Shown: in pieces, positions 6,714 through 20,965 of the stretch
How positions within the stretch are numbered: the stretch's first letter is position 1
How the letters are laid out: each line of letters opens with the position of its first letter
Source: a virus
Virus record (IMG/VR): IMGVR_UViG_3300032304_002340
Coordinates: 1 to 20,966 of that record
Reading direction: 5' to 3' (one strand)
DNA: 20,966 nucleotides
Made by a program: the position numbers and the translations under genes
The notes under the pieces: model-generated
Seen by the model: only the letters and a program-made list of their open reading frames with translations
What the model was told of the DNA's origin: nothing
Databases searched by the model: none

Positions 6714-7067
6714 TTATATAGATGGGGAAATGCTAGATGATAGTTGGAATCCTAAAAGTTGTTGATTAGCAACTAATAGTTCTTGTCTCAAAGAAGTTAT
6801 TTCATCCAATAAAGCCTGGATGTCTTCGGCTATGGCTTCTGCTCCTATATATTCACTACTCTGCTCCACCAAATATTGGTGTGAGTTGATAGATCCACTT
6901 ACGGGAATGTCATAAAAAAGACTATCGTAGAGGCTAAAAAACTCAGGAATAGTAATAGTATCTTCTATAGGAAGGGTAGGAGAAGATATCTGAGAGAAAG
7001 AAGTATCTATGGTTTTTTCATAGTCATTTCTATTAAAGACAGTTCTATTTAAAGGATAATTAGCCAT
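6714..7067 (-). CDS. Small coiled-coil baseplate-associated protein
   Basis: This 117-residue protein starts MANYPLNRTVFNRNDYEKTI. Residues about 80-105 form a helical segment with heptad-like spacing (EDIQALLDEITSLRQELL), suggesting a short coiled coil. The N-terminal half is extended and Pro-rich. The start overlaps the upstream gene by 8 nt and the stop lies 1 nt from the next ATG, so it is embedded in the structural operon and probably translated in fixed ratio with its neighbours. Similar small proteins sit beside the giant baseplate protein in other aquatic T4-like phages as far as I recall. A function as wedge linker or chaperone is inference only. Confidence 0.7.
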   Translation of the reverse strand: MANYPLNRTVFNRNDYEKTIDTSFSQISSPTLPIEDTITIPEFFSLYDSLFYDIPVSGSINSHQYLVEQSSEYIGAEAIAEDIQALLDEITSLRQELLVANQQLLGFQLSSSISPSI

Positions 7068-8181
7068 TTACAATTTTAAAATAATATTCGTTATCAAAAA
7101 TTATAGTTGACCCTCCTATTACAGATTTAATAAGAATCTTATAATATCTTTCAGGTTCTAAACCATTCATATATAATGTAAAATAACTTCCTACATCATC
7201 CAAACTTAGTTGAGTAAATTGTTCATCAAAATCAATTACATATTCATTAGTATCTAAATCTTTTACAGCATAGTATGAAGATGTAGGGAGATAATAATTT
7301 TTTACATAATATGAAGATGTAGAAAATATTCTAGGAGGATATGTAGGACGTGAATTTATCCTAAATTTATTTATGCTGTGAGGGTAAAATATTCCAGGAT
7401 TTTCTGTGATAGATACAGTAGCTATTGAAGTATCTAAAGTGGTAATATTTGAAGAACCAGTAGATACATTATAATCTCTCCATTTAAATTCTAGTTGAGG
7501 AGGATAAATAGTATGAGTATCACGAGAAAAAAATCTCATTTTTATTTGATAATCAGTACTATCAACAAACTCAGTAGATTGTTTTGCTATAAAACCATCA
7601 TTCTCTATAGTTCCACTATACCATGCTTTAACCATATTAGTGATATTAGTATTAATATCACCCGAGTCAAAATAAGCAAAGCTTTGGGTTGAATATATAG
7701 GTAATACGGTTAAATTTGAAGAACCAGTATACCATGTTCCTCCTCCTGCTTCTTGTCCGTATGAAGCTGTTGTATAAGAAGAAAAACTTGAAGTAGCCCA
7801 AGCATTGTTCCCAGAATATGATCTCCACCCCCAACTAACCCCATTAGTATACTCAGGATCATATAAATATTTACCTGTACCCATGTCCCATGACCCTGAG
7901 ATGGGGTAGAAGTCAAGGGTAGTGGTGAGATTTAGTCCTTCAAGGTTAGCTATAAATCCTCTAAAGTTAGCTTGCCATAAAGAGGATCCAATTTTATTAG
8001 TAAGAATATCATTAATTTCCTCAGTAGAAAATTTAACTAAAAATCTGCTAGTTTGAGGAAATGAAGTTATATCACTAAATAAAGTAGAGGTTTCTATTAT
8101 TTCATCTAATCCGGTATTTCTAGAGGGGTAAAGAGAATATATAGAAGCATCTTGAGTAGGGAATATTTTGTAAACAGCCAT
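7060..8181 (-). CDS. DNRLRE-like beta-sandwich structural protein
   Basis: This 373-residue protein begins MAVYKIFPTQDASIYS. The first ~220 residues look like a DNRLRE-type beta sandwich: an opening strand with a 'DASI' motif, an ISGSWDMGT strand, repeated aromatic/Ser loops (WGWRSYSG, WATSSFSSY), and a late INTNITNMVKAWYSG segment followed by GFIAK, matching the usual closing 'DVT..V..W..G......GF.L' pattern. The C-terminal third is further beta-rich sequence. DNRLRE domains are known in bacterial surface and carbohydrate-active proteins. Here the position directly after gp6 suggests a baseplate-periphery or fibre-attachment component. The assignment is from motif memory and needs a profile search. 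It overlaps the next gene by 8 nt. Confidence 0.7.
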   Translation of the reverse strand: MAVYKIFPTQDASIYSLYPSRNTGLDEIIETSTLFSDITSFPQTSRFLVKFSTEEINDILTNKIGSSLWQANFRGFIANLEGLNLTTTLDFYPISGSWDMGTGKYLYDPEYTNGVSWGWRSYSGNNAWATSSFSSYTTASYGQEAGGGTWYTGSSNLTVLPIYSTQSFAYFDSGDINTNITNMVKAWYSGTIENDGFIAKQSTEFVDSTDYQIKMRFFSRDTHTIYPPQLEFKWRDYNVSTGSSNITTLDTSIATVSITENPGIFYPHSINKFRINSRPTYPPRIFSTSSYYVKNYYLPTSSYYAVKDLDTNEYVIDFDEQFTQLSLDDVGSYFTLYMNGLEPERYYKILIKSVIGGSTIIFDNEYYFKIVNG

Positions 8182-8204
8182 TTTTTGTTTATAAATATTA
8201 AATA

Positions 8205-10480: not shown

Positions 10481-10822
10481 TTATTTCATTAATCCCATTA
10501 TTTGGTCTAAACTTACTTCACCACCGGGCAAACTTGATCCTTCACCTGTAGTGTTAACTGGTGGGGGGGTATAAGCAGGTTGAGCATGGGATGAGTTAGC
10601 AGTGACTACTGTATCAAATTCACCTCCAATCATATTTCTTAGATTACGTCTAAGATCATGATTTATTGTTGTTGTTGGTGTTGGTAAAGGAGCAGTAGTA
10701 TAAGTTTCTTGTACTATTGTTTTAGGTGATTTAACTGCTTCAAGAAGTATATCTTTAATTTCTTCTTGGATAGCTTCACGTACTGCTTCTTTAATTAGTT
10801 TTTTTAAAATATCTGTTTTCAT
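10481..10822 (-). CDS. Small helical/proline-rich virion-associated protein
   Basis: This 113-residue protein starts MKTDILKKLIKEAVREAIQE. Residues 1-32 form a strongly amphipathic, charged helix; residues 35-60 and 80-100 are Pro/Thr/Gly-rich and likely disordered; the C-terminus (GGEVSLDQIMGLMK) is a short helix. No enzyme motif or membrane span is present. Such short proteins with an amphipathic N-terminal helix occur beside gp25 in other aquatic T4-like phages as I remember them, but no function is known to me. Its place between the hub-region protein and gp25, with 1- and 16-nt gaps, suggests a minor baseplate component or assembly factor. Confidence 0.65.
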   Translation of the reverse strand: MKTDILKKLIKEAVREAIQEEIKDILLEAVKSPKTIVQETYTTAPLPTPTTTINHDLRRNLRNMIGGEFDTVVTANSSHAQPAYTPPPVNTTGEGSSLPGGEVSLDQIMGLMK

Positions 10823-10838
10823 ATATATAAATATTTAA

Positions 10839-13828: not shown

Positions 13829-13830
13829 AG

Positions 13831-14169
13831 TTAGGGTTTATTAGTAAATTTATCTAACTCAGAAAGTAATTGAGCTTTTTCTTCTTCAGAAATGTTAATA
13901 CCTCCATCTGATGTGGATGAAGATTGGACAGCACGTTGTATTATGGTGGCCATTTTAATTAATTGTTCATCATTTTTTACCCCTATTTCCATATATTCTT
14001 TAATTAGGGGAACAATTAATGTAGCGTCTCCAATTTCATTTATCAGAGGTTTTAGTTCTGATATTAGGGCCGAGATTTGTTTTTCTTTTTTCTTTTGGTT
14101 GTTATATATTTCTTCTAAAAGATCAGAAAATTTTTTATCTCCGAATATTACATTGTCTAAAGCACTCAT
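13831..14169 (-). CDS. Small helical protein of unknown function at head of the structural operon
   Basis: This 112-residue protein is almost wholly alpha-helical and charged, starting MSALDNVIFGDKKFSDLLEE. Residues 20-45 (EEIYNNQKKKEKQISALISE) and 60-80 read as helices with possible coiled-coil character; a Ser/Gly-rich break near 88-95 precedes a final helix. I do not recognise a family. It ends 2 nt before the gp5-like gene, so it is cotranscribed with the baseplate genes and may be a minor structural protein or an assembly chaperone. The leader before its ATG is A/T-rich with no Shine-Dalgarno sequence. Confidence 0.65.
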   Translation of the reverse strand: MSALDNVIFGDKKFSDLLEEIYNNQKKKEKQISALISELKPLINEIGDATLIVPLIKEYMEIGVKNDEQLIKMATIIQRAVQSSSTSDGGINISEEEKAQLLSELDKFTNKP

Positions 14170-14198
14170 GATATTTTTTCATATAAATATGAGTTTAC

Positions 14199-14897
14199 TT
14201 AGAATTTTATATATCCATTTTCTAAATAAAATACATATCCTTCTCTAAAAATAGTATAGAGTTGATTAGCTATTTTAGTAATTTTGGGAGTTTTAGCATC
14301 TACCATTTCTCGTATATAGATATATAATGCTTTTTTATTAAAAATATCTATATTTTCTCGTTTTCTAAATAATTCTAATATAGCATCTGCTATTTGTACA
14401 TCTTGTTCTTTTGGAAAAAGTTCAAATATATTTTCACTACAATATTCAATAAATTTATCTGTATATGTAGATAATAATTCATTTTTAGGTGAGTCGTCTA
14501 AAGAATAAGAAAAATTTTCATCTTGCTCTAAATCTTCAATCGGGATAGAATCAACTCGTTTCTTGTAGTTTTTGGTATTATGTAAAATTAAATACCGTTT
14601 AGCTATAGTACCAAAATATGAATATGCTTTTGCTCCTCTTTCAGGATTGAATAAATGTAATTTTGATAAAAGAAAAGTAATTACCTCATGTTGAAGATGT
14701 TCAATATTATCTACTTCAGTATAATAAAATTTAAAAGTATGGATAATATTTTCGGTAAGTTTAAAAAAAGCATAATGAATCTCATTATTATATAGTTTAT
14801 TTCGTACCTCTAGATCCTGAGTGTTGTTATATTTAACAATGGCATTTTCAGTATCTTGGGTAAAGTACACATTGCTTTTTTTTACTTTGGGTTCCAT
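14199..14897 (-). CDS. gp55: Late-transcription sigma factor, gp55-like
   Basis: This 232-residue protein resembles sigma-70 region 2 as seen in T4 gp55. The key part is residues about 65-115: a helix with EHLQHEVITFLLSKLHLFNP, then ERGAKAYSYFGTIAKRYLI and a basic NTKNYKKR, matching the gp55/sigma pattern of 'FNP.....AY.YF..I....'. The C-terminal half is helical, with KITKIANQLYTIFREGYVFY as a possible DNA-contacting helix. T4 gp55 is about 185 residues, so this version is longer. Family knowledge: gp55 joins host core RNA polymerase to read late promoters (TATAAATA in T4). It lies directly upstream of the late structural genes. The C-terminal extension may replace a co-activator function, which is inference. 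Confidence 0.8.
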   Translation of the reverse strand: MEPKVKKSNVYFTQDTENAIVKYNNTQDLEVRNKLYNNEIHYAFFKLTENIIHTFKFYYTEVDNIEHLQHEVITFLLSKLHLFNPERGAKAYSYFGTIAKRYLILHNTKNYKKRVDSIPIEDLEQDENFSYSLDDSPKNELLSTYTDKFIEYCSENIFELFPKEQDVQIADAILELFRKRENIDIFNKKALYIYIREMVDAKTPKITKIANQLYTIFREGYVFYLENGYIKF

Positions 14898-18151: not shown

Positions 18152-18182
18152 TAAAGATATGACCTATAGTTTAATCTCCAAA
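18152..18182 (-). promoter_or_regulatory. Bacteroidota-type promoter of the clpP-led block
   Basis: On the minus strand TTTG (18182-18179) is followed after 19 bp by TATCTTTA (18159-18152), matching the Bacteroidota consensus TTTG-N19-TAnnTTTG except for the last base. Initiation would fall near 18146, leaving about 30 nt before the clpP ATG. The first 13 bases, TTTGGAGATTAAA, recur on the plus strand at 18764-18776 at the head of a similar promoter. Confidence 0.65.
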
Positions 18183-18635: not shown

Positions 18636-18763
18636 GGGCTGGAATATAATAAGGCTACTTTCATAAAGCAAGTATATTTGTATATCTCTTTCCGACACAC
18701 TATAGGTGTAGTACTCTACGAGAACGCCCCTTTGAATTTTTTTGCGAAATCCCTATAGGTAAA

Positions 18764-18795
18764 TTTGGAGATTAAAAATAGCGTGCGTATCTTTA
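18764..18795 (+). promoter_or_regulatory. Bacteroidota-type promoter facing into the non-coding interval
   Basis: On the plus strand TTTG (18764-18767) is followed after 20 bp by TATCTTTA (18788-18795). The first 13 bases, TTTGGAGATTAAA, and the -7 box are identical to those of the clpP promoter on the other strand; the spacer is one base longer. A transcript starting near 18801 would run rightwards through the repeat-rich interval and antisense to the lipoprotein gene. Confidence 0.5.
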
Positions 18796-18891
18796 GAGTA
18801 CGGGAGAAAAAGAAAATAAGGATGTGGATGAAAATGTGTGAGTGATACGGGGGTGGGGTAATATTAAGGGATAACAAGGGTGTTTGGTGTT

Positions 18892-18905
18892 ATATCCGTA
18901 TATAC
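18892..18905 (+). repeat. 14-nt direct repeat, copy 2 (ATATCCGTATATAC)
   Basis: Exact match to 18241-18254 in the same orientation, on the other side of the small membrane-protein gene. The bases just outside the repeat differ between copies, so the identity stops sharply at 14 nt. Confidence 0.6.
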
Positions 18906-18952
18906 TAATCGACCTGCTATAGTTATACTTTATATATTAATTAATCTAAACT

Positions 18953-18998
18953 CACCACGGCATGGCTATACGCGTCATGGACGGCGGCGCACGTGGTG
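18953..18998. repeat. GC-rich inverted repeat
   Basis: CACCACG at 18953-18959 pairs with CGTGGTG at 18992-18998, a perfect 7-bp stem around a 32-nt GC-rich loop containing CATGG and CCATG-like half-sites. Such GC content is unusual in this A/T-rich genome. It could be part of a structured RNA read from the plus-strand promoter at 18764, or a protein-binding site. Confidence 0.4.
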
Positions 18999-19049
18999 GT
19001 ACAATACTACTATACGCATACCGTATGTATACGCCATATATATATACGC
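18967..19049 (+). repeat. Cluster of four TATACGC motifs
   Basis: TATACGC occurs exactly at 18967, 19011, 19028 and 19043, all in the same orientation, with related GTATAC and CGTATA sequences between them. Four copies of a 7-mer in 83 bp look like iterated protein-binding sites (iteron-like). The spacing is irregular (44, 17 and 15 bp), so a regular array is not formed. Confidence 0.45.
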
Positions 19050-19070
19050 CACACCTACTCAGTAACACAA

Positions 19071-19086
19071 TGGGGCTCTCGCCCCA
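19071..19086 (-). other. Stable GNRA-type hairpin downstream of the lipoprotein gene
   Basis: Read on the minus strand the RNA would be UGGGGC-GAGA-GCCCCA, a perfect 6-bp GC-rich stem closed by a GAGA (GNRA) tetraloop. It lies about 36 nt after the lipoprotein stop. There is no U-tract after it, so it is not a standard intrinsic terminator; it may block 3' exonucleases or end transcription inefficiently. Confidence 0.5.
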
Positions 19087-19121
19087 CCATGTCTAACCAC
19101 TTAAATCCTAAAAAACAACTA

Positions 19122-19313
19122 CTAACGACTCCAACCACAACCACCATTATCACGCTTGATAAAATTATCATGATGGGTGGAACGCAAATGCTTTTGGTAA
19201 CCATAATCAACATGCGACGATGATGAACATGATGTTAACATCGCAGCAGCAATAACAATTACTAATACAGCAAAAACAACACGACAAATAGATCCAACGT
19301 TTTTCATACTCAT
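19122..19313 (-). CDS. Small predicted lipoprotein
   Basis: This 63-residue protein has a lipoprotein signal: residues 1-28 are a short basic start, a hydrophobic core (VVFAVLVIVIAAAM) and the lipobox Leu26-Thr27-Ser28-Cys29. The mature part of about 35 residues is Ser-, His- and Gly-rich and ends GGCGWSR. A second ATG two codons in (19307) may be the start. The residues after Cys29 are Ser, not the Lys/Asp/Glu of the Bacteroidota surface-export signal, so a periplasmic-facing anchor is more likely. It has its own phage-type promoter at 19340-19375. Function is unknown; envelope-located phage lipoproteins often act in superinfection exclusion, which is inference here. The fold of the mature part is not recognisable. 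Confidence 0.72.
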   Translation of the reverse strand: MSMKNVGSICRVVFAVLVIVIAAAMLTSCSSSSHVDYGYQKHLRSTHHDNFIKRDNGGCGWSR

Positions 19314-19339: not shown

Positions 19340-19375
19340 TGTAAAAATAATATATCTATTTAAATTCTCTCGGGT
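19340..19375 (-). promoter_or_regulatory. Phage-type promoter, copy at lipoprotein gene
   Basis: ACCCGAGA (19375-19368) is followed after 13 bp by TATATTATTTTTACA (19354-19340) on the minus strand, about 26 nt before the lipoprotein ATG. The same pair with the same 13-bp gap precedes three other small genes. The leader ends with AATAATTAA, shared among the copies. Confidence 0.7.
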
Positions 19376-19410
19376 AGCAAATATGAATGCTTAACTGACA
19401 CACCCACTAA

Positions 19411-19617
19411 TTAAGATATCTCAGCCAAATGCTCTGCAGCATAAGCTGTGAATATCATTGATATAAAAAACATGATTACACCATATATTGGAGACATAAT
19501 CCAAGACATATAAATGTTTAAATCAAGTGTAATAATGCTTGCAACAGCAGCCGGCGTAATAAACACACCCATAAACACAACACATACTTTCCAGTAAATT
19601 GAGAATAGCTTTTTCAT
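19411..19617 (-). CDS. Small two-span membrane protein
   Basis: I place the start at the ATG at 19617 (68 residues, MKKLFSIYWKVCVVFMGVFI). The frame is open up to 19686, but that extension covers the promoter at 19646-19681, so it is not translated from that promoter. There are two hydrophobic segments, about residues 8-30 (YWKVCVVFMGVFITPAAVAS) and 40-60 (SPIYGVIMFFISMIFTAYAA), with a short Asp-containing turn between them and an acidic C-terminus (EHLAEIS). The first segment may act as a signal anchor. No family is recognised. It has its own promoter and seems to be one of a set of singly transcribed small genes. No terminator hairpin is seen between its stop and the next promoter. Confidence 0.65.
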   Translation of the reverse strand: MKKLFSIYWKVCVVFMGVFITPAAVASIITLDLNIYMSWIMSPIYGVIMFFISMIFTAYAAEHLAEIS

Positions 19618-19645
19618 AATCGTAATTATTATATTTAATTTATAT

Positions 19646-19681
19646 TGTAAAAATAATATAAATAATTTCACAATCTCGGGT
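19646..19681 (-). promoter_or_regulatory. Phage-type promoter, copy at two-span membrane-protein gene
   Basis: ACCCGAGA (19681-19674), 13 bp, then TATATTATTTTTACA (19660-19646) on the minus strand, 28 nt before the ATG at 19617. It begins 3 bp after the T-run of the terminator at 19685-19711, so the end of one unit and the start of the next abut. Confidence 0.72.
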
Positions 19682-19684
19682 AAC

Positions 19685-19711
19685 AAAAAGGGGTATCATT
19701 ATTGATACCCC
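19685..19711 (-). terminator. Intrinsic terminator after the RGRP-repeat gene
   Basis: The minus-strand RNA folds as GGGGUAUCA-AUAA-UGAUACCCC, a perfect 9-bp stem with a 4-nt loop, followed by UUUUU. It lies 27 nt after the stop of the RGRP-repeat gene. The stem is nearly the same as that of the terminator at 20464-20492. Confidence 0.85.
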
Positions 19712-19738
19712 CCTTTGATTATATAACTAACCCCTTAA

Positions 19739-20083
19739 TTATATATCCAGCTTTGGTAATGCTGGGCGACCACGCTTCACTTCATAACCACTAGCAATTA
19801 ACTGTTCACGGACTGCTAAACGTTGTTGACGTGCACTATCAGCCACTACAGGGCGACCACGTCTTGCAACACCACCATTCGCTGCAGCACGCTCAGCTTG
19901 TTCAGCTAATCGCTTTTGACGTTCACTGTCAGCAACAACTGGGCGACCACGTTTCACTTCAACACCCGCGGCTTTACGAGCTTCAATTGCGGCGAGTCGT
20001 TGTTGGCGGACACTGTCTGGATTAACTGGGCGACCCAAGGTTACTACTACTTGATTTTCGGTGTTTTGGAACTGTGTGTTCAT
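19739..20083 (-). CDS. RGRP-repeat (AT-hook-like) putative DNA-binding protein
   Basis: This 114-residue protein is built from repeats of about 29-30 residues. Three near-complete units each start with GRP and continue with V..DS.RQ.RLA (for example RGRPVVADSERQKRLAEQAE), and a fourth partial RGRP unit ends the protein. The GRP cores lie at about residues 17-19, 46-48, 76-78 and 105-107. The last three read KRGRP, RRGRP and KRGRP, the core of the AT-hook, which binds the minor groove of A/T-rich DNA. Between hooks are short Ala/Arg/Glu-rich helices. The gene has its own promoter and a strong terminator. A role as nucleoid-like or transcription regulator on this A/T-rich genome is inferred. 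Similar RGRP-repeat proteins occur in other aquatic phages as I recall. GC content is higher than in its neighbours. Confidence 0.78.
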   Translation of the reverse strand: MNTQFQNTENQVVVTLGRPVNPDSVRQQRLAAIEARKAAGVEVKRGRPVVADSERQKRLAEQAERAAANGGVARRGRPVVADSARQQRLAVREQLIASGYEVKRGRPALPKLDI

Positions 20084-20124
20084 AACTTTTTTAATTATTA
20101 ATTATTATTATTTAAAATTTACAC

Positions 20125-20160
20125 TGTAAAAATAATATAAATACTTGCTTTATCTCGGTT
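20125..20160 (-). promoter_or_regulatory. Phage-type promoter, copy at RGRP-repeat gene
   Basis: AACCGAGA (20160-20153; one base differs from ACCCGAGA), 13 bp, then TATATTATTTTTACA (20139-20125) on the minus strand, 41 nt before the ATG at 20083. The downstream leader contains AATAATTAA like the other copies. Confidence 0.7.
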
Positions 20161-20178
20161 AAGAATTGTGTATTCTTA
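20160..20178 (-). terminator. Weak hairpin at the end of the small alpha/beta gene
   Basis: On the minus strand TAAGAAT and ATTCTTA form a 7-bp A/U-rich stem with a 5-nt loop, starting at the stop codon. There is no U-tract and the stem abuts the next promoter, so it may only slow transcription. This gene lacks the strong GGGGUAUCA terminator seen at two other units. Confidence 0.3.
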
Positions 20179-20385
20179 CTTACACTCTTTTATACTAATA
20201 CAATCAACACCCATGTCTTCATAATGTGTTTTATGGGTAGTGACTTCATCTTTGATTAAACTGCTTAAATCATGATTATGAGACATCATAGCTAATGCTA
20301 TAGCTGAATCAGCAGAGGCTGCTTCAATCGTGAATTCAACAGTAGTTGTAGCGGGAAGAATTTTTTTAATGATAAACTTTGGCAT
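20176..20385 (-). CDS. Small alpha/beta protein of unknown function
   Basis: This 69-residue protein starts MPKFIIKKILPATTTVEFTI. The pattern is two strands (residues 3-9 and 14-21), then EAASADSAIALAMM as a helix, and a final strand CISIKE. The 'V.FTIEA.S.D.A..LA' run is reminiscent of small DpnD/PcfM-like or similar phage proteins, but the match is weak. No membrane segment is present. It has its own phage-type promoter at 20426-20461, with a 40-nt A/T-rich leader and no Shine-Dalgarno sequence. I cannot assign a function. Confidence 0.65.
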   Translation of the reverse strand: MPKFIIKKILPATTTVEFTIEAASADSAIALAMMSHNHDLSSLIKDEVTTHKTHYEDMGVDCISIKECK

Positions 20386-20425
20386 AACGTTGTTTTTATT
20401 AATTATTTATATTTTTAATTTATAC

Positions 20426-20461
20426 TGTAAAAATAATATAATTATTTGCTTCATCTCGGGT
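20426..20461 (-). promoter_or_regulatory. Phage-type promoter, copy at small alpha/beta gene
   Basis: ACCCGAGA (20461-20454), 13 bp, then TATATTATTTTTACA (20440-20426) on the minus strand, 40 nt before the ATG at 20385. It follows the terminator of the preceding gene by 2 bp. The 15-base box is identical to those at 19340, 19646 and 20125. Confidence 0.72.
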
Positions 20462-20463
20462 AG

Positions 20464-20492
20464 AAAAAAGGGGTACCATTATATGATACCCC
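20464..20492 (-). terminator. Intrinsic terminator after the acidic-protein gene
   Basis: The minus-strand RNA folds as GGGGUAUCAU-AUA-AUGGUACCCC, a 10-bp stem with one G-U pair and a 3-nt loop, followed by UUUUUU. It lies about 29 nt after the stop at 20522. Confidence 0.85.
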
Positions 20493-20521
20493 CTTCTAAA
20501 TTAAATATAATAAACCACTAA

Positions 20522-20911
20522 TTAATCATCCCAACCTTCACCATACATTTTATTATCAATATCATCCACTTCAAATAAACCATAACTTACTCCAAAATCA
20601 TTATCATATATTCCAAAACTATCTCTAAATAAATCTTCTAAACTATATTCATACCAAGTCAATCCTAAATCATTTTCAATTATAAAATCACTTCCAAACC
20701 AATTACACATCATTTTATATAAAACACCATTATCCCTATCTAAATCTTCCAATACAATTTCTCTATCTTCTACTTCCTGGTCACAAAATTCATTTAACAA
20801 ATTAATATATTTATCTTTTAATTCATTATTTAAATTTAAATCATTAACATTTAACAATTCACTTTCTTTAAAATCTACCAAAAAATCCTTTAATTTAACT
20901 TGCTTTTTCAT
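20522..20911 (-). CDS. Small acidic protein of unknown function
   Basis: This 129-residue protein is strongly acidic (many Asp, Glu and Asn) and starts MKKQVKLKDFLVDFKESELL. The first ~60 residues are helical (NELKDKYINLLNEFCDQEVE); the second half is aromatic- and Asp-rich with a C-terminal EVDDIDNKMYGEGWDD. No membrane span or enzyme motif is present. Small acidic phage proteins of this kind often act as inhibitors or DNA mimics, but nothing here specifically shows it. The gene is bounded by its own promoter (box at 20951-20965) and a strong terminator, so it is transcribed alone. I do not recognise a family. Confidence 0.65.
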   Translation of the reverse strand: MKKQVKLKDFLVDFKESELLNVNDLNLNNELKDKYINLLNEFCDQEVEDREIVLEDLDRDNGVLYKMMCNWFGSDFIIENDLGLTWYEYSLEDLFRDSFGIYDNDFGVSYGLFEVDDIDNKMYGEGWDD

Positions 20912-20950
20912 AATTTTAATTATTTATTTATTATTATTTAAAACTTATAA

Positions 20951-20965
20951 TATAAAAATAATATA
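20951..20965 (-). promoter_or_regulatory. Phage-type promoter, partial copy at window edge
   Basis: TATATTATTTTTATA on the minus strand matches the 15-base box of the other copies in all but one position. It lies 39 nt before the ATG at 20911. The upstream ACCCGAGA, expected near 20979-20986, is outside the window. Confidence 0.6.

Follow-up and report, generated by a model that had tools for sequence, protein, structure and literature searches.

We found that a series of short genes in an uncultivated T4-like Bacteroidota phage stands behind closely similar bipartite boxes which, judging from their sequence and arrangement, are very probably promoters of a phage-specific class, with CCGAG at the place where other phages carry TTTG. 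The CCGAG element may be read by a separate, probably phage-encoded factor, a reading to which we give slightly better than even odds (about 0.55). The window, which is the whole 20,966-bp virus record analyzed here (G+C 32%), is a piece of this phage, and its baseplate and late genes are related to those of Flavobacterium phage immuto (MW353175). Its minus strand carries four full copies of (A/C)CCGAGA-N18-TATTTTTACA and a fifth cut by the contig end, each lying 28-43 bp ahead of one small ORF.

20951-20965, minus strand: promoter copy 5, the -7 half only (TATATTATTTTTATA, one change), with its upstream part past the contig end; before the 129-aa ORF
20426-20461, minus strand: promoter copy 1, ACCCGAGA at 20461-20454 and TATTTTTA at 20435-20428; before the 69-aa ORF
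20125-20160, minus strand: promoter copy 2, AACCGAGA at 20160-20153 and TATTTTTA at 20134-20127; before the 114-aa RGRP-repeat ORF
19646-19681, minus strand: promoter copy 3, ACCCGAGA at 19681-19674 and TATTTTTA at 19655-19648; before the 68-aa ORF
19340-19375, minus strand: promoter copy 4, ACCCGAGA at 19375-19368 and TATTTTTA at 19349-19342; before the 63-aa ORF
20522-20911, minus strand: acidic small protein of 129 aa without family match, downstream of copy 5
20176-20385, minus strand: small protein of 69 aa without family match, downstream of copy 1
19739-20083, minus strand: protein of 114 aa with four RGRP (AT-hook-like) repeats, downstream of copy 2
19411-19617, minus strand: hydrophobic protein of 68 aa, probably membrane, downstream of copy 3
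19122-19313, minus strand: lipoprotein-like small protein of 63 aa, downstream of copy 4

The original prediction had placed five boxes here, one for each consecutive short gene, and all five were found where expected, though on the minus strand. Matches to ACCCGAGA-N13-TATATTATTTTTACA lie at 19340-19375, 19646-19681, and 20426-20461, with the AACCGAGA variant at 20125-20160; the predicted 13-bp gap, the variable spacer bases between conserved parts, and the 18 bp from CGAGA to TATTTTTA were borne out in these four full copies. The bipartite pattern had no match in 100 dinucleotide shuffles and no further copies elsewhere in the 20,966-bp window. Two details changed. Of the downstream TAA(A/G)TTT said to be kept, TAA(A/G)TT is retained, but the final T is present in only three of the five copies, and the box is not shared as a whole, its front TATAT falling outside the core in relatives, where the common unit is CCGAGR-N18-TAnnTTTA. 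Because spacers and downstream proteins differ, the conservation resides in the box and not in duplicated sequence. Directly before copies 1 and 3, an inverted repeat followed by a T run (GGGGGTATCATATAATGGTACCCCTTTTTT and similar) can be read on the minus strand, which suggests separate promoter-gene-terminator units; an automatic terminator scan listed neither repeat on that strand. An Rfam search of the window gave no match.

When the -7 box is numbered so that its first T is -12 (PMC6847099), CCGAGA spans about -36 to -31, the place of TTTG in other phages, and the anticipated -33/-7 geometry holds, with an upstream element that is not TTTG and a -7 box that fits the Bacteroidota element TAHHTTTG (-12 to -5; PMC6847099) save for a final A. 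Across the window and its relatives, CCGAG[AG] is at the -33 place in 37/37 exact sites, and any TTTG that occurs lies at a distance of 26-28 bp. In other relatives, small genes of this class use TTTGG-N19-TATATTTA, and thus CCGAG sits where TTTG sits. TA-HH-TTT is kept in the exact sites with A rather than G as the last base, these sites having been searched as TAnnTTTA. A further conserved CC lies 14 bp upstream of CCGAG, 38 and 37 bp before the T of the -7 box (about -50/-49); in two of the four window copies these C residues are part of apparent terminator hairpins, which counts against our preferred explanation. Between this CC and CCGAG, the weight-matrix sites conserve AAYTYYTTA. Sigma region 4 contacts 4-6 bp, and the roughly 21 bp of upstream conservation exceeds this, which would point to a separate DNA-binding protein.

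An exact-motif scan of IMG/VR returned no match beyond the window's own record, and a relaxed scan with CCGAGA-N18-TATWTTTACA led to two incomplete relatives, IMGVR_UViG_3300007734_000749 (G016, 66.6 kb) and IMGVR_UViG_3300032331_003707 (G017, 100 kb), with which the window is syntenic (18-19 ORF matches). Exact CCGAG[AG]-N18-TAnnTTTA sites number 4 in the window, 11 in G016, and 22 in G017, all on one strand and none on the other, and every exact site in the two relatives has an ATG 4-45 bp downstream. When spacings of 8 to 30 were scanned, only 18 occurred in the window and G016, G017 adding two overlapping chance matches at 9. By weight matrix there are 4, 23, and 29 sites, respectively, with none on opposite strands or in shuffles; the expectation that copies occur beyond the original cluster is thereby confirmed at the level of the phage group, in two contigs. 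The box variants found (CCTAGA, CCTAGG, CTGGGA) are of the kind expected of a protein-read box. Elsewhere, the weight matrix found one further good site in the T4-like contig L093, where genes for a DnaB-like helicase and ribonucleotide reductase are present (names read from sequence), and weaker sites in L168/L169, with no others in 1.6 Mb of other phage loci. Contig L218 was rejected as a member, since it fits the relaxed pattern but fails the weight matrix. No cultured phage has a match across most of the promoter, and the CCGAG dialect is rare. A tree of three neighboring proteins neither demonstrated nor rejected a single origin of the dialect (p-AU 0.068).

Each phage examined uses one largely uniform early-promoter dialect. 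The small early genes of most other relatives have the canonical Bacteroidota form, TTTGG with its 19-bp spacer, and in the TTTGG-type contigs CCNAGRT-N17-TAnnTTTA has 0 sites. The sequences themselves show the copies, their fixed spacing and -33 position, and the one-strand arrays in relatives, as well as the absence of this class from TTTGG-type relatives and, above chance level, from host genomes. Phage immuto has GTTG-N20-TATATTTAGGTATCAATAATTAAAA (also given as GTTG-N20-TATATTTAGG). A third dialect was seen in L100/L101, GTTCGTATATTGAAC, a palindrome around the -7 box without TTTG. Canonical TTTGG promoters also stand alongside the CCGAG class in the window, G016, and G017, which suggests that the host sigma-A probably still reads TTTG. 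The two canonical-type sites of the window are as follows.

18152-18182, minus strand: canonical-type host promoter, TTTGG ... TATCTTTA, before a ClpP-like gene; the other promoter class of the same phage
18764-18795, plus strand: second canonical-type site, TTTGGAGATTAAAAATAGCGTGCG-TATCTTTA, with no clear ORF behind it

The TTTGG-type relatives carry a CC-R-A-R-A element in the promoter spacer, beside an intact TTTGG and 9 bp nearer the -7 box. At -15, it matches at least four of five core bases in 15 of 38 unbiased TTTGG-type sites (expected 0.7; at most 4 in shuffles). In sequence this spacer element is similar to the CCGAG element, and the two may be homologous. Across the predicted start of many TTTGG promoters (L036, L021, L041, L072, L073, and others), we also observed an inverted repeat with a variable center, ATTTAC-nnn-GTAAAT, a possible operator. 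In immuto (L006, 17665-23856), L114, and L123, some promoters have hairpins such as GCCCCTTCGGGGGC and GCCCCGAAAGGGGC within the -33/-7 spacer, an arrangement that looks like an overlap between a promoter and the terminator of the gene before it.

The window also encodes a predicted sigma factor, and its late genes have a box of their own.

14199-14897, minus strand: predicted phage sigma factor of late-sigma, gp55-like type, with sigma-2 and sigma-4-like parts (structure comparison, weak family match)
14182-14189, minus strand: late-gene box TATTTATA, before ORF 13831-14169
10826-10833, minus strand: late-gene box TATTTATA, before ORF 10481-10822
8190-8197, minus strand: late-gene box TATTTATA, before ORF 7060-8181

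The matches to the structural model of this protein (mean pLDDT only 70) are nearly all sigma factors, with Z about 9-11, and include two-domain fits to sigma-B, sigma-S, and WhiG. Pfam missed it, and 18 of 29 relatives match the late sigma family PHROG 234, each weakly alone (best E 0.0023). The ORF is encoded in ~600 IMG/VR stretches related to the window, and its sequence, a C-terminal HTH-like region (KTPKITKIAN) included, differs little between CCGAG- and TTTGG-type phages. The TATTTATA(A) box precedes many late genes of G016 and G017 by 3-30 bp. Either TATTTATA or ATTTATAA is found at 10 of 45 late ORFs in G016 and 8 of 62 in G017 (shuffled means 1.6 and 1.9); among early ORFs, the counts are 3 of 34 and 0 of 46, with shuffled means of about 1.1. 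This phage group probably uses TATTTATA(A) as its late promoter, and the TATTTATA/ATTTATAA box is a plausible target of the late sigma. Being common to TTTGG-type phages, and with a different box before late genes, the window's sigma is unlikely to be the reader of CCGAG.

We propose that the five boxes would act as phage-specific promoters, one per small gene, at which the host RNA polymerase with its primary sigma (sigma-A) would bind the -7 element (TATTTTTA here, TATCTTTA in relatives), while the usual contact of sigma region 4 with TTTG at -33 would be replaced by another, probably phage-encoded, DNA-binding factor. This factor would recognize a stretch of about 21 bp, with CCGAG(A/G)T (-36 to -30) as its final part, and touch the polymerase there, and the gene set could then be switched together, at an early or middle time. 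Promoter activity, the factor, and its phage origin are what we infer from the sequences, and the timing is guessed from gene type. The dedicated recognition system of the original prediction is upheld in its promoters with a non-TTTG upstream element; of the readers it named, a phage sigma is unlikely, and the 21-bp upstream conservation favors an activator. Its suggestion to look for either one yielded a sigma common to both dialects and no activator gene. In family scans of the G016 and G017 early regions, no HTH or MotA/AsiA-like gene emerged as a candidate confined to CCGAG-type phages, and Pfam and PHROGs showed no regulator among the best-conserved early proteins; with a 21-kb fragment and incomplete relatives, the factor may lie outside. 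A DksA/TraR-like zinc finger and HTH/HNH gene in G017 were considered and rejected, since a similar pair is annotated in immuto, without the CCGAG class. More tentatively, and at less than even odds, a group of T4-like Bacteroidota phages may have an undescribed sigma-appropriation system of its own, in which a phage DNA-binding factor reads a CCGAG element; in some lineages this would lie in the spacer of normal TTTGG promoters, and in others it would have moved 9 bp upstream and assumed the -33 role, making the whole early gene set dependent on the phage factor.

Alternatively, a phage (or host alternative) sigma might by itself recognize the -7 box and the CCGAG at -33, without a separate activator. 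The rigid 18-bp spacing is as expected for a single protein reading both boxes, and ORF 14199-14897 of the window does code for a sigma factor. We consider this unlikely, however, as the near-identical sigma of TTTGG-type phages leaves the -33 change unexplained, the late genes carry the different box TATTTATA that would be the expected late-sigma target, the -7 box is host-like, and conservation reaches 14 bp upstream of CCGAG, beyond sigma contact; as for a host alternative sigma, the CCGAG pattern is at chance level in 149 Flavobacteriaceae genomes. The host-like -7 box would also suit plain host-type promoters in a Bacteroidota lineage whose primary sigma prefers CCGAG at -33, and an unusual sigma-A region 4 in such a lineage would give much the same picture. 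Close phage relatives using TTTGG in the same register could mean different hosts, and the -33 element is weakly conserved in F. johnsoniae (PMC6847099). This reading is somewhat less probable still, given that TTTGG promoters persist in the window (18152-18182 and 18764-18795), G016, and G017, that a GTDB scan of 84,980 species' genomes gave 17 exact single matches, mostly coding or chance, and that the 32 matches in the 149 Flavobacteriaceae genomes, not above a reversed-pattern control, argue against a host lineage or host regulon alike.

CCGAG could instead be an operator through which a phage regulator represses or times promoters that fire mainly from a strong -7 region. Such a role would accord with the CC-R-A-R-A element of TTTGG-type phages, which lies in the spacer, where a bound protein would normally hinder the polymerase. 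Yet no other suitably spaced -33 element is left in the CCGAG class, which means that the contact there has to be supplied by something, and an element that keeps its place in every copy looks more like an activating contact; we regard the operator as improbable. Least probable by far is that the likeness reflects only recent gene-cassette duplication and that the box is without function. Small-gene arrays often grow by duplication, but here it is the box, its spacing, and its position that persist between genomes ~60% identical in the sigma protein, and the spacers, leaders, and downstream proteins are not alike.

A phage-encoded factor at -33 can be compared with several known systems. Bacteroidota primary-sigma promoters (-33 TTTG/-7 TANNTTTG) share with the CCGAG class a -7 TA-HH-TTT-A in the same register, a fixed upstream distance, and a short A/T-rich leader without a Shine-Dalgarno sequence. 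The CCGAG class differs in having CCGAG(A/G) for TTTG at -33, extra conserved bases near -50/-49, and a -7 box that ends in A, a feature also of related phages' TTTGG promoters. In immuto, too, there is one strongly conserved promoter per gene and a small-gene array in syntenic position, but its promoters are of the GTTG type, with no CCGAG class. T4 late promoters (TATAAATA) are read by gp55; similarly, a related late sigma is predicted here and late genes have the short A/T box TATTTATA, whereas the CCGAG promoters form a class apart, which has an upstream element and stands before small non-structural genes. The best fit appears to be host polymerase with its own sigma at -7 and a phage factor at -33, like T4 middle transcription under MotA/AsiA (PMC2988021), where a phage box replaces the host upstream element and a host-type downstream element is kept, with many copies and tolerated box variants; for our promoters, this likeness is by sequence only. 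The T4 MotA box is wwwTGCTTtA at 12+/-1 bp from the -10 element (PMC2988021), in contrast to CCGAGRT at 18 bp from the downstream element here. Family scans of the G016 and G017 early regions revealed no MotA/AsiA relatives, in genomes that are incomplete and for proteins that diverge fast. With a different box, different spacing, and no visible MotA/AsiA relative, we did not file these sites as MotA promoters.

We found no paper on promoter recognition by large T4-like phages infecting Bacteroidota, a subject that is almost undescribed. If the proposal is true, these phages would have replaced the host promoter in its -33 half only, as T4 does for its middle genes, though their box and geometry are unrelated to those of T4. 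A CCGAG signal at the exact place of the host upstream signal suggests an undescribed way of redirecting the host transcription machinery. As close relatives use different dialects for the same kind of gene, how a gene set changes its promoter code becomes a testable question.

The RGRP protein is the best conserved among the window's small early proteins. It has orthologues in both CCGAG-type relatives (77% identical in G016), and its gene stands behind a CCGAG promoter in the window and in G017. We considered and rejected this protein as the CCGAG-reading factor: strong relatives occur in CCGAG-type phages and L100/L101, and weaker ones in the TTTGG-type G002 and G010, so it is not specific to CCGAG-type phages. 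A conserved non-coding stretch separates the small-gene array from the ClpP block (window 18700-19121, minus sense; G016 13830-14700; G017 55701-56120). It shows 83-85% identity over 113 and 96 bp when G016 is compared with G017, is partly present in the window, and is possibly a replication origin or structured element.
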